Shown: positions 2,391 to 15,589 of the stretch, piece by piece
Layout of the letters: every line of letters begins with the position of its first letter
How positions within the stretch are numbered: position 1 is the first letter of the stretch
Assembly (NCBI RefSeq): GCF_007845675.1
Contig: NZ_VOBR01000013.1
Span: 182,908-246,907 of the forward strand
Origin: Lentzea tibetensis
GTDB taxonomy: Bacteria; Actinomycetota; Actinomycetes; Mycobacteriales; Pseudonocardiaceae
Direction of reading: 5' to 3'
Length of the DNA stretch: 64,000 nt
Translations under genes and position numbers: made by a program
The notes under the pieces: model-generated
Told to the model about the DNA's origin: nothing
Database searches by the model: none
The model's input: the letters and a program-made list of their open reading frames with translations, nothing else

Positions 2391-3233
2391 GTGAGCATTG
2401 ACTGGGAGGACGCGCGGCGGGTCATCCGGACCGCGCTCGAAGAGGACCTGCGGTACGGGCCGGACGCCACGACCGCGTCCACGGTGCCGCCGGACGCCGT
2501 GGCGATCGCGGAGATCACTCCGCGCCACGGCGGTGTGCTGGCCGGCGTCCCGGTGGCGCTGGAGGTGTTCCGCACCGTGCTCGGCGACGTCGAGGTGCTG
2601 TCCGAGCAGCGGGACGGCGACAAGGCCGTGCCCGGCGAGCCCGCGCTCGTGCTGCGCGGCCCGGTGCGCGGCCTGCTGACCGCCGAGCGGACCGCGCTGA
2701 ACCTCGTTTGCCACCTATCCGGCATCGCGACCGCCACAGCCGTGTGGGTCGAGGCGGTCGAGGGCACCGGTGCGCGCGTCCGCGACTCGCGCAAGACGCT
2801 GCCGGGCCTGCGTTTGCTCCAGAAGTACGCGGTGCGGTGCGGCGGCGGCGTGAACCACCGCCTCGGCCTCGGCGACGCGGTGCTGATCAAGGACAACCAC
2901 GTCGCCGCGGCCGGATCGGTCGGCGCCGCGATCAGGGCCGTCCGCGAGCGCGCGCCGCACCTGGAGTGCGAGGTCGAGGTGGACAGCCTGGAGCAGTTCG
3001 ACGAGGCGGTCGCCGAGGGCGCGAAGCTGGTGCTGCTGGACAACTTCACGCCCGCGCAGTGCGCGCTGGCCGTGCAGCGCGCGAACGGCGTGCGGCTGGA
3101 GGCGTCCGGCGGCCTCACGCTCGACGTGGCTCGCGCGTACGCCGAGACGGGTGTCGACTACCTGGCCGTCGGCGGGCTGACGCACTCGTCGCCCGCGCTC
3201 GACCTCGGCCTCGACCTGCGTCAGACGCGGTAG
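2391..3233 (+). CDS. nadC: nicotinate-nucleotide pyrophosphorylase NadC
   Basis: NadC (quinolinate phosphoribosyltransferase) converts quinolinate and PRPP to nicotinate mononucleotide. Family signatures are RDSRKTLPGLR, the lysine/histidine segment KYAVRCGGGVNHR, LIKDNH, EVEVDSLEQFDEA and EASGGL. The GTG at 2391 has a GGAG five bases upstream and gives 280 residues; an in-frame ATG at 2373 would add six residues and cannot be excluded. It follows nadB by 28 bp. Its 3' end overlaps the convergent ABM monooxygenase gene by 13 bp, so no terminator separates them. Confidence 0.95.
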   Translation: MSIDWEDARRVIRTALEEDLRYGPDATTASTVPPDAVAIAEITPRHGGVLAGVPVALEVFRTVLGDVEVLSEQRDGDKAVPGEPALVLRGPVRGLLTAERTALNLVCHLSGIATATAVWVEAVEGTGARVRDSRKTLPGLRLLQKYAVRCGGGVNHRLGLGDAVLIKDNHVAAAGSVGAAIRAVRERAPHLECEVEVDSLEQFDEAVAEGAKLVLLDNFTPAQCALAVQRANGVRLEASGGLTLDVARAYAETGVDYLAVGGLTHSSPALDLGLDLRQTR

Positions 3234-3610
3234 CGCTCGAACCCCGCCGGGGTGACACCGGGGAAGTTCTGCACCCGGCGCCACTCCGGCGTGTCCGAGC
3301 CGACGCCGGGCCCGGCTGCCTCGAGCGCCGCGATGTGGCCCTCCTCGCTGACCCACTCCGCGTAGTTGATGACGTGCCTGCCGTCCTCGCGGATGTGGAA
3401 GTGCGCGGAGACGCCCTCCTCGCGCGGGAGCTCGGGGTCGGTCTCGATCGCGTGGAACACGGCGTCCACCCACTTCTGGGCGACGTCCCGGTTCTCGGTG
3501 TCGACGTGCACCAGCACGACGCAGCCGGGGGTCTTGTCTTCGTTCACGGCGCCGCGGTAGAGCTCGAAGCCGTCGATGTGGTCACGGGTGATGCCAGCGG
3601 GAATCGTCAT
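3221..3610 (-). CDS. ABM-family (dimeric alpha/beta barrel) monooxygenase
   Basis: A 129-residue single-domain protein. The strand VVLVHVDTENRD, the helix with QKWVDAVFHAIE, the FHI strand and the segment INYAEWVSEEGHIAAL are typical of antibiotic-biosynthesis-monooxygenase-like dimeric alpha/beta barrels, cofactor-poor quinone or antibiotic oxidising enzymes. An in-frame ATG at 3619 exists, but the ATG at 3610 lies exactly 7 nt after the -10 hexamer of the SoxR-type promoter and 9 nt after a GGAGG, so 3610 is preferred. The promoter places it in the SoxR redox-stress regulon. Its substrate is unknown. Confidence 0.8.
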   Translation of the reverse strand: MTIPAGITRDHIDGFELYRGAVNEDKTPGCVVLVHVDTENRDVAQKWVDAVFHAIETDPELPREEGVSAHFHIREDGRHVINYAEWVSEEGHIAALEAAGPGVGSDTPEWRRVQNFPGVTPAGFERYRV

Positions 3611-3648
3611 GCCGATCATCCTCCGACCTCGACTTAACTCGAGGTCAA
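3611..3648 (-). promoter_or_regulatory. SoxR-type promoter and operator for the ABM monooxygenase gene
   Basis: On the minus strand: -35 TTGACC (3648-3643), a 19-nt spacer, -10 GAGGAT (3623-3618), then 7 nt to the ATG at 3610. The spacer holds a SoxR-like 18-bp box (3627-3644) with perfect CCTCGA/TCGAGG arms around a TTAA centre. A long spacer with the palindrome between -35 and -10 is the hallmark of MerR-family activation. The same layout recurs beside soxR at 13997-14034. The box overlaps the stop codon of the upstream nitrilase gene. Predicted TSS is at the start codon. Confidence 0.75.
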
Positions 3649-4419
3649 CACCCGGTTTGCCAGCACCGGCAGCACTTTGCGCGCTTCCGCGACCGATTCG
3701 GTGTCGATGTCGACGATCGCGGTGCCAGGCTCGGCGCCGAGCTGCGTCACGACGTCGCCCAGCGGACCGGCGACCGTGCTGTACCCGATTCCCGTGGGCG
3801 CGGTGCTGCCGAGATCACCGGGATACGCCTGGCCGCACGCGACGACCCACGACGTGCAGTCCAGCGCCCGCGCCCGCACCAGCAGCTCCCACTGCTCGCG
3901 CTTGCCCGGCCCCGCACCCCACGACGCACCGAGCAGCACGGCCGTCGCACCCTTGTCCGCGAGCGCGCGGAACAGTTCGGGGAACCGGATGTCGTAGCAG
4001 GTGGCGACGCCGAGCGTGGTGCCGTCGACGTCGATCGTCACGACCTCGGAGCCGGGCGCGACGGTGCGCGACTCGGCGAACCCGAACGCGTCGAACAGGT
4101 GGATCTTGTCGTACCCGGTGTGCACGTCCTCGCCGGTGACCAGCAGCGTGTTCGTCACGCGGTCGCCGGACGGGGTGAACATCCCGGCGATGACGACGAC
4201 GCCGTGCTCTCGGGCGGTCGCGCGCACCGCGGACGCCCACGGTCCGTCCAACGGCTCGGCGACCGGACCGAGCGGCACGCCGAAGCGGCACATCGTGGCC
4301 TCGGGGAACAGCACCACGCGCGCACCTTCGGCGGCAGCGCGCGCCACGGAGGATCGCACCTGGTCGAGGTTCTCGGCAGGCGAGGTCGTCGAGCTGATCT
4401 GGCACACCGCGATACGCAT
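3634..4419 (-). CDS. carbon-nitrogen hydrolase (nitrilase superfamily)
   Basis: A 261-residue cytoplasmic hydrolase. The Glu-Lys-Cys catalytic triad is visible: Glu in LFPEA, Lys in GYDKIHLFD and Cys in ATCYDIRFPEL. The set resembles omega-amidase or dipeptide/deaminated-glutathione amidases, so it probably hydrolyses a small amide; the exact substrate cannot be read from sequence. The ATG at 4419 is preferred to the GTG at 4428: a TAGAGT -10 hexamer sits 7 nt upstream of the ATG, suggesting a leaderless mRNA. It is divergent from the binding-protein gene at 4437 with only 17 bp between the starts. Confidence 0.9.
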   Translation of the reverse strand: MRIAVCQISSTTSPAENLDQVRSSVARAAAEGARVVLFPEATMCRFGVPLGPVAEPLDGPWASAVRATAREHGVVVIAGMFTPSGDRVTNTLLVTGEDVHTGYDKIHLFDAFGFAESRTVAPGSEVVTIDVDGTTLGVATCYDIRFPELFRALADKGATAVLLGASWGAGPGKREQWELLVRARALDCTSWVVACGQAYPGDLGSTAPTGIGYSTVAGPLGDVVTQLGAEPGTAIVDIDTESVAEARKVLPVLANRVLTSS

Positions 4420-4436
4420 GAGGACCACTCTAGGTA

Positions 4437-5969
4437 GTGTCAGCGATCGTGCCCTCCCTGTTGCCGCCTGTTCTGCTCGGCGCCGCCCTCGTGGTGGCGG
4501 GCTGCACGGACAACTCGGCGCCGGACGGCAACCCCGACACGACAGGTCAGTCGATCGTCCTCGCCGACCGCGACGAGCCGACCACGCTGAACCCGCTGTT
4601 CGGCTACGGCAGGCAGGGCGCGTCGAAGATCTACGACGGCCTGGTCGAGCACCGCCAGGACGGCAGCCTGCGCCCGCAGCTGGCCGCGGACGAGCCCGTC
4701 CCGTCCGTCGACGGCCTGACCTGGACCGTCAAGCTGCGCGGCGACGTGAAGTTCACCGACGGCTCCGCGTTCGGCGCCGAGGACGTCGTCGCCACCTACC
4801 AGGCGATGCTCGACCCGGCCGTCGGCTCGACCGCGCGCACGTCGTTCAGCACGCTGAAGGCCGTCGAGCAGGTCGACCCGTCCACCGTCCGGTTCGCCCT
4901 GACCCAGCCGCACGCCGCGTTCCCGCACCTCCTCGTCCTGGGCATGATGCCGAGCGAGCACGTCGGCAAGGACGTCCCGCCGATCGGCACCGGCCCGTAC
5001 AAGGTCGTGGAGTGGAAGAAGGGCGACCGCCTGCTGCTGGAGTCCAACGCGGGGTACTTCGACGGCGAACCGAAGATCAAGAAGCTGACCGTGGTGTTCG
5101 TCGCCGACGACAACACGCGGGCGCGCCGCATGCAGGACGGCGAGTTCGACGGCACCGTCCTGCCGCCCAAGCTCGCCGCCGGCTTCACCGGCAAGTCCGG
5201 CCTGCAGGTCCTCAGCCACCGCGGCGCCGACTACCGCGCCGTCTCACTGCCCGGCGCGGGCCCGGTCACCGGCAACCGCGAGGTGCGCATCGCGCTGAAC
5301 TACGCGGTCAACCGCCAGGGCATCGTCGACAGCCTGCTGGAGGGCAAGGGCACCGCCGCGAGCACCCCGGTGCCCGAGGCGCTGCCGGAGGTCTTCGAGC
5401 CGTCCGCCAAGTTCCGCTACGACAAGACCGAGGCCGAACGCCAGCTCGAGGTAGCGGGCTGGGTGCGCGGCACCGACGGCATCCGCGCCCGCAACGGCGT
5501 ACCCGCCCGCTTCACCCTCATGTACCCGCTCGGCGACGATCTGCGCGCCGACCTGGCCACCGCGTTCGCCGCCGACGCCCGCGCGGTCGGCGTCGACGTG
5601 CAGCTCGCGGGGCTCAGCTGGGAGGCGATCACGCCGCGGTTGGGTGTGGACGCCCTGCTGTCCGGTGAGGGCAACCCGTTCGACGCCGACCTCATGCTCT
5701 ACGACCTGCGCGGGCAGGGGAATCCGCAGGTCGACGTCGCGTTGGAGGACGGGCGGCGGTTGACCGACCCTGGGCAGCGGGCGGTGGCCTACAAGCAGTT
5801 CCAGCGCGCGTACGTCGTCGAGCCCTGCATGGTCGTGCTCGCGTTTCCCGAGCACTCGTACGTCGTGCGGGACAAGTGGAACGGGTACCTGCCCGTCGTT
5901 GATCCGAGCTCGTACGGCGCACTCGGCTGGGGCCCGTGGTGGAACATCCAGAAGTGGGAACCCAAGTAG
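4437..5969 (+). CDS. ABC transporter substrate-binding lipoprotein (SBP_bac_5, peptide/nickel type)
   Basis: A 510-residue extracellular solute receptor of the DppA/OppA family. It has a lipoprotein signal ending in LVVAGC (lipid-anchored Cys near residue 22). Signature segments include DEPTTLNPLF, YDGLVE, WTVKLRGDVKFTDG and FGAEDVVATYQAMLDP near the N-lobe, and GTGPYKVVEWKKGDRL. No permease or ATPase genes adjoin it, so it is an orphan binding protein in this window or works with a system elsewhere. Ligand is probably an oligopeptide, but nickel- or sugar-type ligands are possible. The GTG start has no clear ribosome site. Confidence 0.88.
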   Translation: MSAIVPSLLPPVLLGAALVVAGCTDNSAPDGNPDTTGQSIVLADRDEPTTLNPLFGYGRQGASKIYDGLVEHRQDGSLRPQLAADEPVPSVDGLTWTVKLRGDVKFTDGSAFGAEDVVATYQAMLDPAVGSTARTSFSTLKAVEQVDPSTVRFALTQPHAAFPHLLVLGMMPSEHVGKDVPPIGTGPYKVVEWKKGDRLLLESNAGYFDGEPKIKKLTVVFVADDNTRARRMQDGEFDGTVLPPKLAAGFTGKSGLQVLSHRGADYRAVSLPGAGPVTGNREVRIALNYAVNRQGIVDSLLEGKGTAASTPVPEALPEVFEPSAKFRYDKTEAERQLEVAGWVRGTDGIRARNGVPARFTLMYPLGDDLRADLATAFAADARAVGVDVQLAGLSWEAITPRLGVDALLSGEGNPFDADLMLYDLRGQGNPQVDVALEDGRRLTDPGQRAVAYKQFQRAYVVEPCMVVLAFPEHSYVVRDKWNGYLPVVDPSSYGALGWGPWWNIQKWEPK

Positions 5970-6008
5970 CGGACTGATCGCCGGCGCCCTTCGTGGCACA
6001 GTGGCCAG

Positions 6009-7139
6009 GTGAGCGAACGGATCTTTCTCGACAGCGCCGGATCGTCGTTGCCCCCGGAGCCGGTGCTCGACGAGGTCATCGGGCACCTGCGCCGCGAAGC
6101 CCAGATCGGTGGCTACCGGGCCGCCCAGGAACGGGCGGAGGACCTGGAGAAGGGCTACGACGTGGTGGCCGAGCTGCTCGGCTGCCGCCCGGACGAGGTC
6201 GCGTTCACCGACAGCGCCACCCGCAGCTGGCTCACCGCGTTCGACGCGGTGCCGCTGAAGGCCGGTGACCGCATCCTGGTCACCGAGGTCGAGTACGCGG
6301 GCAACGCGGTGCCGCTGCTCAGGCGGGCCGACGAGACCGGTGCGGTCATCGAGGTGGTTCCGTCCGACCACAGTGGACAGGTGGACCTGGAGGCGCTCGG
6401 GCAGCTGCTGGACGAGCGGGTGAAGCTCGTCTCCATCGTGCACGTCCCCACCAACAGCGGCCTGATCAACCCGGCGAAGCAGATCGCGGACAAGGCGCAC
6501 GAGGTGGGCGCGCTGGTGCTGCTGGACGCGTGCCAGTCGGCGGGTCAGCTGGACCTGCGCGACACCGGAGCGGACATGCTCAGCTTCACCGGACGCAAGT
6601 GGCTGCGCGGGCCGCGCGGCACGGGGGCGCTGATGGTGCGCAACGAGGTGCGCGAGCGGCTGCACCCGCGGCTGGTCGACATGCACAGCGCCGCGTGGGT
6701 GGCGCCGAACGAGATCGAGCTGCGTGACGACGCGCGGGTGTTCGAGCTGTGGGAGAGCAGCGTCGCGGACCGGCTCGGGCTGATCGCCGCCGTCCGGTAC
6801 GCGCTGGATCGGGGGCTCGGCAGGATCGAGGCGGAGATCGCGGAACGCGCCACGAGGCTGCGCGACGGGCTCAGCGCCATCGACGGCGTAGAAGTGCGTG
6901 ACATCGGGGTGCGCAAGTCCGGGCTGGTGACGTTCACCGTCGACGGGCTGGGCGCGAGTGAGGTGAAGCGGCGTCTCTACGACGCGGGCGTCACGGTGTC
7001 GACCAGCGACTTCAACTCGACGCTGTTCGACATGACCAAGCGGGGCATCGACGAAGTAGTGCGGGCTTCCCCGCACTACTTCGTCACCGAAGACCAGATC
7101 GACGAGGCCGTCGACGAGGTCAGCAGGTCTGTCCGATGA
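6009..7139 (+). CDS. class V aminotransferase (cysteine-desulfurase-like)
   Basis: A 376-residue PLP enzyme of fold type I. Recognisable parts are the N-terminal FLDSAGSSLPP, the cofactor-aspartate segment VLLDACQSAGQ and the Schiff-base lysine in SFTGRKWLRGPRGTG. The family includes cysteine desulfurases, C-S lyases (EgtE-like) and kynureninase-like enzymes. No iron-sulfur scaffold or ergothioneine gene is nearby, so substrate assignment is open. A CACAGT hexamer sits 6 nt before the GTG start. Its 3' end overlaps the convergent carboxypeptidase gene by 20 bp. Confidence 0.85.
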   Translation: MSERIFLDSAGSSLPPEPVLDEVIGHLRREAQIGGYRAAQERAEDLEKGYDVVAELLGCRPDEVAFTDSATRSWLTAFDAVPLKAGDRILVTEVEYAGNAVPLLRRADETGAVIEVVPSDHSGQVDLEALGQLLDERVKLVSIVHVPTNSGLINPAKQIADKAHEVGALVLLDACQSAGQLDLRDTGADMLSFTGRKWLRGPRGTGALMVRNEVRERLHPRLVDMHSAAWVAPNEIELRDDARVFELWESSVADRLGLIAAVRYALDRGLGRIEAEIAERATRLRDGLSAIDGVEVRDIGVRKSGLVTFTVDGLGASEVKRRLYDAGVTVSTSDFNSTLFDMTKRGIDEVVRASPHYFVTEDQIDEAVDEVSRSVR

Positions 7140-8409
7140 CCCGCTTCACGCAGTCGGAGTACTGGAGGAACATGTCGGTGGCGCGGTCGTTGCGGGCGGT
7201 CTGCGCCGCGATGACCGTGTCACGCGGGTAGAAGCCGTTCAGGCCACCGCTGCTCGGGTACATCTCGAAGGTGTAGCTCCAGATCTTGTACTGGCCCCAC
7301 ATCCAGTCGTCGATGGTGCCGTCGGTGATGTAGAGGTCGCTCGACTGCTCCGGCGTGTAGCCGTTGGTCGACGCCATCTGGGTGCCGAGGGTGCGGAACG
7401 CCCGCTCCTCGTTCGCGTCCAGTCCGGGCGCGGTGTTGTTGTAGGTCCAGCCGAACGGCCACAGCACCAGCTCGGAGAACGTGTGGAAGTCGAGGTTCGT
7501 CTTGATCTGCTGCACGCCGCCGACCACGCGGGAGTTCACGAAGTCGCGGATGCGCGCGGTCTCCGGCGCGGAGAACGCGGACGGGCCGCGGTAGGTGTCG
7601 GAGGACGTGCTGCCGCTGGAACCGCCGCAGCAGCCCCACTTGTAGCCCCAGTTCCGGTTGAGGTCGGTGCCCGCGCCCTGGCGGTTCTTGCGCCAGCCGC
7701 GGAACGAACCGGTCGCGATGTCGTACTCGGAGCCGTCCGGGTTGACGCTGGAGACGACCCAGATCTCGCGGGAGTCGACCAGGGCCTTGATCGCCGAGTT
7801 GGTCGTGTAGCCGTCGGTCAGCCGCTGGATGAAGTGCAGGCACATCTCCACGGTCAGGTGCTCACGCGCGTGCTGGTTGCACGTGATGATGACCTCGGGC
7901 TCGTTCTCGTCGGTGCCGGCGTTGTCGCTGATCTTCAGGTTCCACAGGTCGCGGCCCTGGAACGACTTGCCGATGCTGGAGAGCTTCGCGATCGAGGGGT
8001 GGTCGGAGGCCGTCTTCTGCAGCTCGGACGTCATCTCCGCGAAGTTGTGGTAGCCGGTGTAGCCGGACGGGAAGTCCTTCGCGCCGATCTCCGGGTCCTT
8101 GAAGTCGACCTTGCCGAGCTTCGCGAACTCGGCCTCGGCGTCACCGATGTACTTCATCGGCAGACCGGTGTGCCGGAGCGCGACAGCTTCACCCGGTGCG
8201 GCGATGACGGTCACCGGCCCGTTGGTGGTCTCGTCGATCAGGTCGGCGCCCGTGTGGACGACCTGCCTGAGCTGTCCTACGTTCTTCACGGTGATCTCGT
8301 AAACCGTGCGGCCCGAGCCGACGGCCTGGATCGGTGCGCTCGTGCCTACCAGCAGGGGCAGGCAGACGCCGACCACTGCGGCCACGAGGCCGCGGCGTGC
8401 TGTGGACAT
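7120..8409 (-). CDS. secreted M14 zinc carboxypeptidase
   Basis: A 429-residue exported metallopeptidase. The N-terminus has an Arg-containing n-region and a hydrophobic stretch ending near residue 29. After a propeptide-like segment comes the M14 domain: zinc ligands in NQHAREHLTVE (HxxE) and in LDFHTF, a substrate-binding segment DLNRNWGYKWG, and the catalytic glutamate in YTFEMYP. Residue pattern fits the carboxypeptidase T/A branch, which removes C-terminal residues from peptides outside the cell. A GGAGG precedes the ATG. It probably has its own promoter, back-to-back with hisD. Confidence 0.93.
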   Translation of the reverse strand: MSTARRGLVAAVVGVCLPLLVGTSAPIQAVGSGRTVYEITVKNVGQLRQVVHTGADLIDETTNGPVTVIAAPGEAVALRHTGLPMKYIGDAEAEFAKLGKVDFKDPEIGAKDFPSGYTGYHNFAEMTSELQKTASDHPSIAKLSSIGKSFQGRDLWNLKISDNAGTDENEPEVIITCNQHAREHLTVEMCLHFIQRLTDGYTTNSAIKALVDSREIWVVSSVNPDGSEYDIATGSFRGWRKNRQGAGTDLNRNWGYKWGCCGGSSGSTSSDTYRGPSAFSAPETARIRDFVNSRVVGGVQQIKTNLDFHTFSELVLWPFGWTYNNTAPGLDANEERAFRTLGTQMASTNGYTPEQSSDLYITDGTIDDWMWGQYKIWSYTFEMYPSSGGLNGFYPRDTVIAAQTARNDRATDMFLQYSDCVKRVIGQTC

Positions 8410-8508
8410 TGCTCCTCCATCATCAGCAGGGGTTTGCGACGGAGTGGTGCCTTACGCAGCGTCGCGCCGCCGCGACGTACTGGAATAGCGCCGATCGCGG
8501 GCTGACAG

Positions 8509-8542
8509 TTGACAGAATCGAACCTGGCTTAGGCTGTAGGCC
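8509..8542 (+). promoter_or_regulatory. promoter of the his operon (leaderless hisD)
   Basis: TTGACA (8509-8514) and TAGGCT (8530-8535) are separated by 15 bp, and TAGGCT lies 7 nt before the hisD ATG, predicting a TSS at the start codon. The hexamer recurs at hisH, hisA and hisF. The 15-bp spacer is short, so the true -35 may differ. Confidence 0.55.
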
Positions 8543-11557
<3,015 letters not shown>

Positions 11558-11558
<1 letters not shown>

Positions 11559-11713
11559 TGCCGAAGGAAGTCGTCGTCATCGGACTGCTGGCGGTGGCGG
11601 GGTTCCTGGTGGGCGGCGTGTACGCCACCTGGAAGACCGCCCGCCTGATGGCCGTGGTCCTCAGCGTGCTGTTCGTGCTGGCGGTGGCCGGCGCCGCGCT
11701 CTGGCTGCTCTAG
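11558..11713 (+). CDS. small two-helix membrane protein in the his operon (51 aa)
   Basis: The ATG at 11558 overlaps the hisB stop (TAATG). The 51-codon frame ends at 11713 just before a hairpin. Two hydrophobic segments (about residues 5-22 and 31-51) flank a short basic turn with Tyr, Trp, Lys and Arg, so it should be an integral membrane protein. The translational coupling and codon use (strong G/C third positions) support a real gene. I do not recognise a function; a role in the his pathway is only suggested by position. Confidence 0.7.
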
Positions 11714-11730
11714 TGCCGGTCACGGCACTA
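11711..11730. terminator. hairpin between convergent hisB-operon and methyltransferase genes
   Basis: Perfect 8-bp stem TAGTGCCG/CGGCACTA with a GTCA loop, starting at the stop codon of the 51-aa gene. It lies between convergent genes, lacks a T-tract, and could end transcription from both sides. Confidence 0.6.
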
Positions 11731-11731
11731 G

Positions 11732-12339
11732 TCAGACCGTTCCGATCACCCAGTGGAAGGTGGCGGGATCCTCGGGTTCCGCCATCGTCACGACCTCGTC
11801 CACGAGCAGGGTGAAGCCGGCCAGCCCGAGCAGCTCTCGGTTGACCTGTGGCGGGTGGCTGCCGAAGAACATCGGCGCGCCCAGCCACGTCGTGTGCACG
11901 TCGTCCGTGCCGGATCCCAGTGCCGCGAGGAACAATCCGCCCGGCCGCAGCCACGACGCGACGTTCCGGAACAGCGCGGGCTGCTCGGCGCGCGGCACGT
12001 GCAGGACGCTGTAGAACGCCGCGACCGCGTCGAACGAGCCGGGCTCGAGCTCGAGGGGGTCATGTCCGCCTGGACGAAGCGCGCGCCGGGCACGTGGCGC
12101 CTGGCCAGGTCGAGCTGGGCGGCGGAGAGGTCGACGCCGAGCACGTCGTGCCGCTCCGCAAGCCTTTGCGTGCAGGGGATTCCGGCGCCGCAGCCGAGCT
12201 CCAGCACCTGGGACCGCTCGCCCAGTCTGCCCATCAGCTCCGCGAGCATCCGGGGCCTGGCCTCGTCGGTGAACTGCCCGCACCAGTCGAGGTACGTCCG
12301 GGCGATCCGGTCGTAGCCTGCTTCGACGACGTCCTTCAC
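11732..12339 (-). pseudogene. SAM-dependent methyltransferase, interrupted by a -1 frameshift
   Basis: The N-terminal part starts at the GTG 12339 (VKDVVEAGYDRIARTYLDW) and contains the SAM motif LELGCGAGIP and the acidic VLGVDLSAAQLDLAR. The C-terminal part continues in another frame from LELEPGSFDAVAAFYSVLHV through NVASWLRPGGLFLAAL to the stop at 11732. The frames would join perfectly if the run of five C on the coding strand (12055-12059) had one more C. It is therefore a single-base deletion, a sequencing error or a slippage site. An intact product would be about 202 residues. The GTG overlaps the upstream kptA stop. Confidence 0.75.
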
Positions 12340-12857
12340 CGGGCGAGGTACTGGGCCGGGACGTGCGAGGTGAGCCAGACGCCGTTCGCGCTGACCCGGA
12401 ACTCGTGGCCGTCCTGGTGCATGAGCGAGGCGTCGACGGTGAGGATCACCGGCTTGCCGCGCCGCGCGCCGACGCGTTCGGCGGTCTCCCTGGTGGGGGA
12501 GAGGTGCACGTCGTGGCGCGACATCGGACGCAGGCCGTCGGCCAGGATCGCGTCCAGGAACTTCGCCACGGTGCCGTGGAACAGGACCACCGGAGGCACG
12601 GCGACGGGCAGGTCGAGGTCGACGGTGACGCTGTGGCCCTGGTTGGCGCGGATCAGGTCGCCCTCGATGGCGAACCGCTGCTTGTCGTTGCCCGCGACCA
12701 CTTCGAGCAGTTCCTCGTGGGACATGTGCAGCGCGGCCAGCAGGTCGTCGACGGCCACCCAGCCCGCCGGGTCGAGCTGGAGGCCCGCCGACGCGGGGTC
12801 GTGCCGGAGCACGCGGGACATCCGCTTCGAGAGGCGGACGAGTCTTTCGTGTTGCAT
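12336..12857 (-). CDS. kptA: RNA 2'-phosphotransferase (Tpt1/KptA family)
   Basis: This family transfers a 2'-phosphate from RNA to NAD, giving ADP-ribose cyclic phosphate; its bacterial role is unsettled because bacteria lack the eukaryotic tRNA-splicing substrate. The 173-residue product has the conserved order LSKRMSRVLRHDP with GWVAVDDLL, RANQGHS, LFHGT, then HLSPTRETAERVGARRG. Those Arg/His residues are the NAD- and phosphate-binding set. I chose the ATG at 12857 (MQHERLVRLSK); the frame extends to 12923 without a good start. It is followed by the methyltransferase in a GTGA overlap. Confidence 0.88.
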   Translation of the reverse strand: MQHERLVRLSKRMSRVLRHDPASAGLQLDPAGWVAVDDLLAALHMSHEELLEVVAGNDKQRFAIEGDLIRANQGHSVTVDLDLPVAVPPVVLFHGTVAKFLDAILADGLRPMSRHDVHLSPTRETAERVGARRGKPVILTVDASLMHQDGHEFRVSANGVWLTSHVPAQYLAR

Positions 12858-12955
12858 GGCTTTCAGCAAAGCACGCCGCGCCACCGAATTCTGTGCGGCT
12901 TCTGTGCGGCCGGCCCGCCACACTGGCGACGAGTGCCATCACCAATGGGGGAACC

Positions 12956-13516
12956 ATGCGAAGAGCACTTCTGTTCGGGCTGGTCATGACCTTGTTCGCG
13001 CTGCTCACGCCGGGGGTGGGGCAGGCGAACCCGTGGTACGGCCCGTGGCTGATGCAGAACGCCAGGACCGGCAAGTGCATCGACCTGCCCGGCTACGGGG
13101 CGGGCACGATCGACGGCCCGGTCAACCAGTACACCTGCCGTCCGTACGGCGACAACCAGATGTGGCAGCTCGCGTACAAGCCGAACGAGGGCTCGAACGC
13201 CGTCGTCGCGCTCTACAACACCGCCGACAACCTGTGCCTGGACCTGCCGTACTACGGCTCGGTGGCACCGGGCACCAGGGTCACCGAGTACACCTGCGCG
13301 GGTCCGGAGGACAACCAGTACTTCGTCGTGGTGAAGCGCAGCGGCGGCGGCTCGATCCCCGAGGGCTACTGGTTCGTGCACCAGAAGTCGCGGTTGTGCC
13401 TGGACGTCGACGGGTTCGGCACCGGGGGCGACGACGCGCCGCTGACGCTGTGGCACTGCAGCGACGCCGACGACCACATCTGGAACAACCGGGCGCCGTA
13501 CTACTTCCGCGGCTGA
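12956..13516 (+). CDS. secreted ricin-type beta-trefoil lectin domain protein
   Basis: A 186-residue exported protein. After a signal peptide ending near AQAN-like GQAN (residue about 24) comes a single beta-trefoil domain. Three repeats are visible, each with a Cys and a Q/N-x-W-like end: GKCIDLPGYG with NQMWQLAY, DNLCLDLPYYG with DNQYFVV, and SRLCLDVDGFG with DDHIWNN. No catalytic domain is attached, so it is a stand-alone sugar-binding protein. A GGGGGA precedes the ATG at 12956. It ends directly against the convergent soxR gene. Confidence 0.88.
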   Translation: MRRALLFGLVMTLFALLTPGVGQANPWYGPWLMQNARTGKCIDLPGYGAGTIDGPVNQYTCRPYGDNQMWQLAYKPNEGSNAVVALYNTADNLCLDLPYYGSVAPGTRVTEYTCAGPEDNQYFVVVKRSGGGSIPEGYWFVHQKSRLCLDVDGFGTGGDDAPLTLWHCSDADDHIWNNRAPYYFRG

Positions 13517-13987
13517 TCAGATCCCGCCCTCCGTGGCGGCCTTGAGCCTCGGCGCGCCAGGGCCCGCGTTGGCCATGACGTCGTCGGAGTTCTGCAGGAA
13601 ACAGCTGCGCAGAGACAGGCAGCCGCACCCGATGCAGCCGGTCAGCCGGTCGCGCAACCGCTGCAGCGCGTCGATCCGCGCGTCCAGTTCGGACTGCCAG
13701 CCCTTCGAGAGACGGGCCCAGTCCGACTTGGTCGGCGTGCGGCTGTCCGGCAGCGTCGCCAGCGCGTCGCGGACGTCCTCCAGGGACAGTCCGACGCGCT
13801 GGGCGGTGCGGATGAACGCGAGCCTGCGCAGCACCGACCGGGCGTAGCGGCGCTGGTTGCCCGTGGTGCGCACGGACGCGATCAGGCCGCGGTCCTCGTA
13901 GAAGCGCAGCGCGGTGTGCGGCACGCCGCTGCGATCGGCGACCTGGCCGATGGTCAACATCTCCGGCAACTTGCTCACGACCCCCAT
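13517..13987 (-). CDS. soxR: redox-sensing MerR-family activator SoxR
   Basis: A 156-residue MerR-type regulator. The N-terminal winged helix reads MLTIGQVADRSGV, ALRFYEDRGLI and the wing NQRRYARSVLRR; a dimerisation helix follows. The C-terminal motif CIGCGCLSLRSC is exactly Cx2CxCx5C, the [2Fe-2S] ligand set of SoxR, followed by a tail typical of actinobacterial SoxR. In this group SoxR senses redox-cycling quinones and phenazines and activates a small regulon. It is divergent from the split transketolase, and a SoxR-type promoter lies between them. The ATG at 13987 gives the normal N-terminus. Confidence 0.95.
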   Translation of the reverse strand: MGVVSKLPEMLTIGQVADRSGVPHTALRFYEDRGLIASVRTTGNQRRYARSVLRRLAFIRTAQRVGLSLEDVRDALATLPDSRTPTKSDWARLSKGWQSELDARIDALQRLRDRLTGCIGCGCLSLRSCFLQNSDDVMANAGPGAPRLKAATEGGI

Positions 13988-13996
13988 CGTACGTGC

Positions 13997-14034
13997 TTGA
14001 CCTCTACCTTGGTCGAGGTCGCAGAGTGGGTCGC
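13997..14034 (+). promoter_or_regulatory. SoxR-type promoter and operator for the split transketolase genes
   Basis: Plus strand: -35 TTGACC (13997-14002), 19-nt spacer, -10 CAGAGT (14022-14027), then 7 nt to the ATG at 14035. The 18-bp box at 14001-14018 has CCTC/GAGG ends and CC/GG inner pairs. Its layout matches the promoter at 3611-3648 base for base in spacing, and the GAGGTCG downstream of the box is shared. The -10 is weak, as expected for an activated promoter. It also lies 9 bp from the soxR start, so it may serve autoregulation. Confidence 0.75.
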
Positions 14035-14706
14035 ATGATGCAGACCGAGCTACCCGCCCTCTTCGCGAGGATGACGGGCGACGAGAAGCACGAGTGGGCG
14101 GCGGCATCGACGCTGGACGTGCTCTGGGTCCTCTACGACCGCGTGCTGAACGTATCACCGAAGAACCTCGCCGATCCCGGCCGCGACCGGTTCCTGCTCT
14201 CCAAGGGGCACGGGCCGATGGCGTACTACGCCGTGCTCGCCGCGAAGGGCTTCCTCGAACCGTCCACATTGGACAACTGGACGGAGTGGGACTCACCCCT
14301 CGGCCAGCACCCGGACCGCGTGCTCGTGCCCGGCGTGGAGATCAGCAGCGGGTCGCTCGGCCACGGGCTCGGTCTCGCCGTCGGCACCGCGCTCGGTCTC
14401 GGTGTCCAGGCCAGTCCGGCGAAGGTGTTCGTGCTGGTCGGCGACGGCGAGCTCGACGAGGGCAGCAACCACGAGGCCATCGCGATCGCGGGCCGGTTCG
14501 GCATCGAGCGGCTCACCGCGGTCGTGATCGACAACGACTCGGCGAGCCACGGCTGGCCCGGTGGCATCGACCAGCGGTTCGCTGTCGAGGGCTGGGCGAC
14601 GCTCACCGTCGACGGCCGCGACCACGACGCGCTCGAAGCCGCGTTCACCGCCGAACACCCAGGACAGCCGCTCGCGGTTGTCGCGCAAATCCGGAAGGGC
14701 AACTGA
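14035..14706 (+). CDS. transketolase, N-terminal (ThDP-binding) subunit
   Basis: The 223-residue product is the first half of a two-gene transketolase. It has the LLSKGHGPMAYYA segment, SGSLGHGLGLAVGTALG and the thiamine-diphosphate motif beginning GDGELDEGSNHEA. The partner half is the next gene, two bases downstream. Split transketolases interconvert pentose phosphates or act on special ketoses; the substrate is not evident. The ATG at 14035 lies 7 nt from a SoxR-type -10, suggesting redox-inducible leaderless expression, consistent with feeding the NADPH-producing pentose phosphate cycle under oxidative stress (inference). A second ATG follows at 14038. Confidence 0.9.
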   Translation: MMQTELPALFARMTGDEKHEWAAASTLDVLWVLYDRVLNVSPKNLADPGRDRFLLSKGHGPMAYYAVLAAKGFLEPSTLDNWTEWDSPLGQHPDRVLVPGVEISSGSLGHGLGLAVGTALGLGVQASPAKVFVLVGDGELDEGSNHEAIAIAGRFGIERLTAVVIDNDSASHGWPGGIDQRFAVEGWATLTVDGRDHDALEAAFTAEHPGQPLAVVAQIRKGN

Positions 14707-14707
14707 C

Positions 14708-15589
14708 ATGCGCACGGAGTTCGCCAAGACGGTCCTCGCCGAGATGGACGCCGACCCGCGCGTCGCCGTGGTCATCGCGGCCATCTCCCGCGACCTCTTC
14801 CCGCGCGTCGACCGCGTGATCGACGTGGGCATCCGCGAGCAGGCGATGATCGGCGTCGCGGGCGGCCTCGCCCTCACCGGTCTGCGCCCGGTCGTGCACA
14901 CCTACGCGCCGTTCCTGGTGGAGCGCCCGTTCGAGCAGATCAAGCTCGACCTCGGCCACCAGGAGGTCGGCGCGGTGCTGGTCAGCGTCGGCGCCTCGTA
15001 CGACGACCCGGCGTGGGGCCGCACCCACCAGGCACCCGGCGACGTGGCGCTGTTCGACACGCTGCCCGGCTGGACCGTGCACGTCCCCGGCCACAGCGAC
15101 GAGGTCGGCCCGCTCGTCCGCGACGCGATCAGGGGCGACGGCCGCGTGTACGTCCGGCTGTCGATGCACGAGAACGCGCAGGGCTACCCGGTGGGCCAGG
15201 GGGTCACCGAGGTGCGCCGCGGCCGCAAGGGCGTCGTGCTCGCCGTCGGCCCGGTGCTCGACCGCGTGGTGAAGGCCGTCGAGCAGGAACAGGCCGACGT
15301 GACCGTGCTCTACGCGTCGACCGTGCGGCCGTTCGACGGCGACGGGCTGCGCGCGGCGCTCGCCGAGGCCGAGCGCTCGGACGTCATGCTCGTCGAGCCG
15401 TACCTGGAGGGCACGTCGGCGCACGTGGTCACCGAGGCGTTGGAGGAGGTGCCGCACCGGCTGCGTTCGGTGGGCGTGAAACGGCACCTCGAACTGCACG
15501 CCTACGGCACGGCAGCGGACCACGACGCGGCGCACGACCTCGATGTCGTGGGCATCGCCGCGGCCGTTCGCGCCTTCTTCCACCGGTGA
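14708..15589 (+). CDS. transketolase, C-terminal (pyrimidine-binding) subunit
   Basis: The 293-residue product is the second half of the transketolase: the pyrimidine-binding domain with IDVGIREQAMIGVAGGLALTG (catalytic Glu in REQ) and GRTHQAPGDVALF, then the C-terminal transketolase domain with VLYASTVRPFDGDGL and LVEPYLEGT. It should assemble with the preceding subunit as an alpha2beta2 enzyme. The two-base gap makes an operon certain. A 1-deoxyxylulose-5-phosphate-synthase-like reaction is less likely because the N-terminal subunit is short. Confidence 0.9.
   Translation: MRTEFAKTVLAEMDADPRVAVVIAAISRDLFPRVDRVIDVGIREQAMIGVAGGLALTGLRPVVHTYAPFLVERPFEQIKLDLGHQEVGAVLVSVGASYDDPAWGRTHQAPGDVALFDTLPGWTVHVPGHSDEVGPLVRDAIRGDGRVYVRLSMHENAQGYPVGQGVTEVRRGRKGVVLAVGPVLDRVVKAVEQEQADVTVLYASTVRPFDGDGLRAALAEAERSDVMLVEPYLEGTSAHVVTEALEEVPHRLRSVGVKRHLELHAYGTAADHDAAHDLDVVGIAAAVRAFFHR

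Follow-up and report, generated by a model that had tools for sequence, protein, structure and literature searches.

Activators of the MerR type work by an established mechanism, the realignment of promoter elements, and MerR-family operators share a layout in which a palindrome lies within an over-long spacer. In E. coli, the box CCTCAAGTTAACTTGAGG is centred in the 19-bp spacer of soxS, the divergent target of soxR, whose promoter reads TTTACC, 19 nt, TATACT. PMC4411124 prints this consensus and describes S. maltophilia soxR and mfsA as divergent genes that share one SoxR box, which lies in the 19-bp spacer of the mfsA promoter; in that species SoxR represses its own promoter, and a functional box matches the consensus at 14 of 18 positions. 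The six-gene SoxR regulon of S. coelicolor is dispersed over the genome and includes the ActVA-ORF6-like monooxygenase SCO1909, a quinone oxidoreductase, a transporter and an oxidoreductase, as given in PMC4146615. Here, we analyzed a 64,000-nt stretch of the Lentzea tibetensis genome (contig NZ_VOBR01000013.1, positions 182,908 to 246,907; hereafter, the window) that carries two promoters 10 kb apart, the second beside soxR. These are very probably SoxR operator-promoters of the MerR type, and two of at least seven in a predicted genome-wide SoxR regulon, given that the identity of SoxR, the E. coli-like layout, the conservation in the genus and the distant ABM kinship of the first target all hold.

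Both promoters are built as TTGACC, 19 nt, a -10-like hexamer, 7 nt and ATG. At site 1 (3611..3648, minus strand), the -35 TTGACC at 3648-3643 is followed by the 19-nt spacer, the -10 GAGGAT at 3623-3618 and, 7 nt on, the ATG at 3610-3608. At site 2 (13997..14034, plus strand), TTGACC at 13997-14002 and CAGAGT at 14022-14027 flank the 19-nt spacer, with 7 nt to the ATG at 14035. If these degenerate -10 hexamers are right, the two spacers have the same length, 19 nt, as that of E. coli soxS. The 22-bp palindrome GACCTCnAnnnnnnTnGAGGTC spans most of the -35 and most of the spacer at each site (SoxR-type box 1, 3625..3646, minus strand; SoxR-type box 2, 13999..14020, without strand and common to the divergent soxR and transketolase promoters), and GAGGTCG is separated from the ATG by exactly 13 nt at both. 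The initial annotation had placed twin promoters at these coordinates, with TTGACC, a 19-bp spacer, GAGGTCG and 13 nt to an ATG; this reading was correct, and the pair is not due to chance. Although TTGACC and GAGGTCG are indeed present at both sites, they cannot be counted as separate shared features, as TTGACC and GAGGTC are mostly the outer parts of the single palindrome. The centres of the two boxes are not alike. The E. coli soxS gene starts well downstream of its -10 and encodes a regulator, whereas the predicted direct targets in Lentzea are enzymes and pumps whose start codons lie 6-7 nt after the -10.

Exact copies of GACCTCnAnnnnnnTnGAGGTC occur in the 9.36-Mb genome at sites 1 and 2 only, and at up to two mismatches the palindrome was found at 77 places genome-wide, compared to 19 for a reversed-pattern control. 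A 25-bp pattern at up to three mismatches matched four times in the window (the two sites, each on both strands) against 0.17 expected, and none of 100 window shuffles reached four matches. The full pattern consisted of TTGACC, the box in the 19-bp spacer, the -10 and a start codon 6-7 nt on, the last distance being set by the pattern itself; the control was this pattern read backwards and run on the same 25 Lentzea genomes. The full pattern was present at 131 sites in these genomes, with 0 for the control in all 25. Seven of its places are in the genome studied here, namely, sites 1 and 2 plus five more, and the local regulon proposed in the initial annotation was too narrow and is rejected, given these five further sites elsewhere in the genome. 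Two sites in this genome (C1:351955 and C50:16248) meet the full pattern at one mismatch, and each of its 6 exact TTGACC-box sites has an ATG or GTG at a distance of 13-14 nt downstream.

Judged by its sequence, the gene beside site 2 (soxR, 13517..13978, minus strand) codes for a genuine SoxR that has the cysteine motif of the [2Fe-2S] cluster. The product scored 206.6 bits against the SoxR equivalog model TIGR01950 (cut-off, 116.9) and matched E. coli SoxR (2ZHG) at E 2.1e-42, in an alignment that runs through the cysteine motif CxxCxCxxxxxC (CIGCGCLSLRSC aligned with CIGCGCLSRSDC), which binds the [2Fe-2S] cluster of SoxR. All 25 Lentzea genomes, this one included, carry SoxR at 84-100% identity, and in each the gene diverges from that of a two-subunit transketolase. 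Toward soxR, 25/25 Lentzea have a TAnnnT hexamer 6-7 nt 5' of a conserved GTG; in the window this is the predicted -10 TACGAT (13991-13986), which together with the 7 nt to the GTG occupies 13979..13991 of the minus strand. The soxR identity proposed in the initial annotation thus stood, but the start of the gene is probably GTG 13978 rather than the in-frame ATG 13987, because the conserved soxR -10 overlaps that ATG. Given the position of the hexamer before the conserved GTG, box 2 would overlap the likely soxR -35, whereas in S. maltophilia the box covers the soxR transcription start and the target is an MFS pump (PMC4411124). By analogy with S. maltophilia, SoxR probably represses itself at box 2. 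We also observed a second SoxR-like protein, with ~58-62% identity to the query, in at least 7 of the 25 Lentzea genomes (L036-L040).

Scanning related genomes for the box at the orthologous genes, a check proposed in the initial annotation, gave a consistent picture within the genus. With the box as the sole criterion, it was found at the transketolase promoter in 25/25 Lentzea (0-1 mismatch) and at 18/18 ABM promoters (0-2 mismatches); the full pattern added a nineteenth ABM copy (G012), so that the box is present in 19/19 Lentzea genomes with an ABM match, while 6 of the 25 genomes gave no such match. In all 43 box-only promoters, the hexamer 1 nt past the box has A at position 2 and T at position 6, and ATG or GTG lies 13-14 nt past the box (with an earlier in-frame start as well in four), leaving 6-7 nt between the -10 and the start codon. 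This fixed box-to-start distance points to transcripts that begin at or very near the start codon and are leaderless. A Shine-Dalgarno-like 4-mer lies 5' of the start in 16 of the 131 sites, 13 of which are ABM sites where the 4-mer coincides with the -10. At site 1, a second in-frame ATG, at 3619, falls within the -10.

We translated the frames that follow the 131 sites, clustered their products and scanned one member per cluster for families. The predicted regulon is genome-wide, with SoxR-type promoters placed before efflux pumps and redox or tailoring enzymes. The largest clusters were the transketolase (25 genomes), a quinone oxidoreductase (24), an MFS transporter (23), an SgcJ/EcaC-like protein (19, at 20 sites) and ABM (17 under the strict pattern); smaller ones comprised an SDR (8), DoxX (3), a small unknown protein (3), a second SDR (2), an ABC transporter (2) and four singletons. 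Family cut-offs were passed by the MFS, ABC, zinc-type dehydrogenase, DoxX and PPOX members, by one SDR and by the SgcJ/EcaC member (TIGR02246, 91.5 bits against 33.95). The more specific name quinone oxidoreductase is below its cut-off (TIGR02824, 144.4 against 296.8), as is that of a 222-aa SDR, which was matched in NCBIfam only.

Some genes behind these promoters are unusual. In the genome studied here, the SgcJ/EcaC-like gene (G000:C13:63185-63224; L168, L192) encodes 69 aa and is without ~59 middle residues found in its relatives of 127-128 aa, and its promoter is intact. Another genome (G002; L203, L204) carries a pair of SoxR-type promoters separated by 1.3 kb: a broken quinone oxidoreductase fragment follows the first, and the frame behind the second groups with the intact copies. 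In G012:C344 (L059), the promoter is kept and the ABM gene seems interrupted, its match to the query being confined to a short late segment. A 108-aa protein without a family match also stands behind a SoxR-type promoter (G000:C36:62795-62834; L163), and related frames of 54 and 106 aa lie behind such a promoter in two other Lentzea.

Site 1 precedes an ActVA-ORF6/ABM-like gene of 129 aa (3221..3610, minus strand). The initial annotation had called this gene an ABM monooxygenase, and a distant kinship to ActVA-ORF6/ABM proteins does emerge from a family profile: the single sequence matched ActVA-ORF6 at E 0.013, and a profile of 18 Lentzea orthologues found the ActVA-ORF6 monooxygenase (1LQ9) at E 6.7e-6. 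The Pfam ABM family (PF03992), however, gave no match to the site 1 protein at the gathering score, and of two orthologues scanned, one scored 18.5 bits, below the cut-off of 23.1, while the other had no match. The statement in the initial annotation that a monooxygenase of this sort is among Streptomyces SoxR targets was right, since SCO1909 resembles ActVA-ORF6 according to PMC4146615. Upstream of promoter 1 is a carbon-nitrogen hydrolase gene (3634..4428, minus strand). Its 3' end runs into the operator, with the TAA stop codon at 3634-3636 in the centre of box 1. Downstream of site 2 lie the two subunits of a split transketolase, the N-terminal, thiamine diphosphate subunit (14035..14706, plus strand) and the pyrimidine-binding/C-terminal subunit (14708..15589, plus strand), recognized on adjacent genes by PF00456 and PF02779, both above cut-off. 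The second begins 1 nt after the first, and the two genes are therefore probably one operon. Another open frame of the genome, 741 aa long, is also transketolase-like, so the split enzyme is not the only one.

The transketolase box extends beyond the genus. A set of named genomes contained 53 transketolase-related loci, of which 22 were named Lentzea and one, named Nocardia sp. (L125), matches a genome of the same genus (G017). Boxes at up to two mismatches were found at 20 other named loci, in Labedaea, Saccharothrix, Umezawaea, Kibdelosporangium, Actinophytocola and Actinokineospora; in the Saccharothrix group the -10 place is often without A, and the single locus of Actinosynnema sp. has a diverged palindrome with five mismatches. 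No box was found at the transketolase loci of a contig labelled Melainabacteria (one locus) or of two distant Oxalobacteraceae. In a sample of 296 genomes of the class, 36 hold a transketolase orthologue (E <=1e-80). Among the 37 copies outside our own genome, 31 have a box (up to three mismatches) and a start codon 13-14 nt on; the count tried distances of 13 and 14 only, and a distance-free search recovered these boxes for 28 of the 29 copies taken first. Such a box was present in 9 of 1543 real 60-mers taken elsewhere in 29 of these loci. SoxR was found in 35/36 genomes with the orthologue, compared to 129/260 without it (Fisher P 3.6e-9, a test that ignores kinship). A box at up to two mismatches lay upstream of 13 of the 24 ABM matches outside our own genome in the class sample (whole open frame searched; L282 and L283 have ABM genes that are ill defined).

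In three genomes (L320, L321 and L325), we observed transketolase palindromes with shifted half-sites (CTTGAA or GTTGAA for CCTCAA) and unchanged spacing, a possible co-change of SoxR and its box. Among genomes with altered half-sites, the SoxR of G142, G243, G324 and G295 reads RYYE, compared to RFYE in 5 of the 6 other actinomycete SoxR proteins shown. The sixth (L291) has RYYE despite an ordinary box, so the co-variation suggested by these sequences is a lead only.

Several observations weigh against reading these sites as SoxR promoters with leaderless starts. By hand count against the 18-position consensus, site 1 matches at 15 positions and site 2 at just 11. A GGAGG lies 9 nt 5' of the site 1 ATG and could act as a ribosome-binding site if transcription began upstream, and of the 8 TTGACC-box sites that this genome has at one mismatch, only 3 are followed by a start codon at the expected spacing. 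In family f20, the likely start of six boxed ABM genes is 37-54 nt from the box in five (two of them with earlier in-frame starts) and 14 nt in one; because of these starts, leaderlessness is not universal. Among 23 genomes of other genera, ABM had 11 matches, spread over 10 genomes, and no box was found at any of them; these homologues are therefore probably paralogues. The transketolase loci of Amycolatopsis (four) and Micromonospora (two) showed no box and no soxR in the stretches examined (whole open frame plus 400 nt). Of the six class copies left over from the count above, two have four mismatches and two have five, in the same layout, and L292 and L327 have nothing recognizable; one assembly of 470 contigs (G084) combines the transketolase and an exact box with no SoxR match. 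Lastly, further MerR proteins are encoded in this genome (the SoxR query had 15 matches, counting SoxR itself) and could read similar boxes.

This last point leads to the alternative in which the boxes are real MerR-type operators, some of them read by one or more different MerR-family regulators, with SoxR controlling its own locus only. Such a division of labor would be in keeping with the unlike box centres at sites 1 and 2, with a layout common among MerR-family operators (described in part in PMC5045206) and with a 60%-identical SoxR-like paralogue in another Lentzea (L040) that has a similar box upstream of its own gene. However, a SoxR homologue (E <=1e-3) was found in only 6 of 38 target loci (30 from the 131-site set and 8 of this genome, ~1.5 kb on each side), all of them soxR-transketolase loci, a search in which distant MerR proteins could be missed. 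The transketolase also co-occurs with SoxR, and the types of target gene resemble those of the S. coelicolor SoxR regulon; we consider a different regulator unlikely.

For box 2, it could further be argued that the palindrome is only an autoregulatory site of soxR, with the transketolase as a bystander, given that the box stands in the soxR-transketolase gap in 25/25 Lentzea and that soxR of E. coli and S. maltophilia shares such gaps with a target. The class sample speaks strongly against this. Only 9 of the 37 transketolase copies adjoin soxR, a count that was upheld with wider stretches, and 25 of the other 28, which have no soxR within ~1.5 kb, keep the box at the same distance, fixed at 13-14 nt; by this distribution the box serves the transketolase, and the bystander explanation is very improbable. 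Still less credible is the suggestion that the palindromes arose by chance, or as GC-rich repeats of low information, in ordinarily regulated promoters. A short motif in a GC-rich genome, seen in two copies at first reading, could have raised that suspicion, which is dispelled by the genome-wide counts, by the shuffles, by the reversed control of the full architecture and by conservation over families.

The SoxR-promoter explanation, which we thus prefer, suggests the following mechanism. A SoxR dimer would sit on the palindrome within the over-long 19-bp spacer and, when reduced, keep the -35 and -10 out of register; oxidation of its [2Fe-2S] cluster by redox-cycling metabolites would lead SoxR to untwist the DNA, realigning the promoter elements and allowing transcription. 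We infer this realignment from knowledge of MerR-type activators and from the matching layout of E. coli soxS. Site 1 would then drive the ActVA-ORF6-like monooxygenase, and site 2 the two-subunit transketolase, while overlapping the divergent soxR promoter. The predicted regulon probably serves to defend the cell against redox-active metabolites, whether endogenous or environmental, through pumps, quinone reduction and tailoring by monooxygenases and dehydrogenases. A transketolase supplying sugar phosphates or two-carbon units would be the least certain step.

SoxR regulons, boxes shared by soxR and a divergent target, and an ActVA-like monooxygenase target are already known. What is new is the breadth of the predicted regulon and its fixed, apparently leaderless geometry, although leaderless SoxR promoters may already show in the S. 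coelicolor box-to-start distances of PMC4146615, figure 3C. In that paper, S. coelicolor soxR is reported not to be autoregulated and no transketolase is among the six targets, whereas Lentzea soxR shares its box with the split transketolase, the most conserved target. A search of the literature on SoxR with transketolase, leaderless starts, the soxbox and these genera, with subscription papers mostly outside its reach, led us to recognize only one related report, a footnote to Table 4 of PMC4146615 that notes a box at S. avermitilis SAV_1623, a putative transketolase.

In summary, our findings extend to Lentzea and its relatives a regulon that has been studied in a few Streptomyces, and they point to a metabolic enzyme, the transketolase, as the SoxR-type target that is best conserved among the genomes examined. 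The fixed box-to-start spacing offers a simple pattern for finding SoxR targets in Lentzea, one with no matches in the reversed control. We lean toward the view, with some reservation, that the split transketolase is an ancestral core SoxR target throughout much of the class, and that its promoter is leaderless, the box fixing the start 13-14 nt away. If true, actinomycete SoxR would couple redox-active metabolites to sugar-phosphate flow, through the pentose pathway or two-carbon transfer, beyond its pumps and tailoring enzymes.

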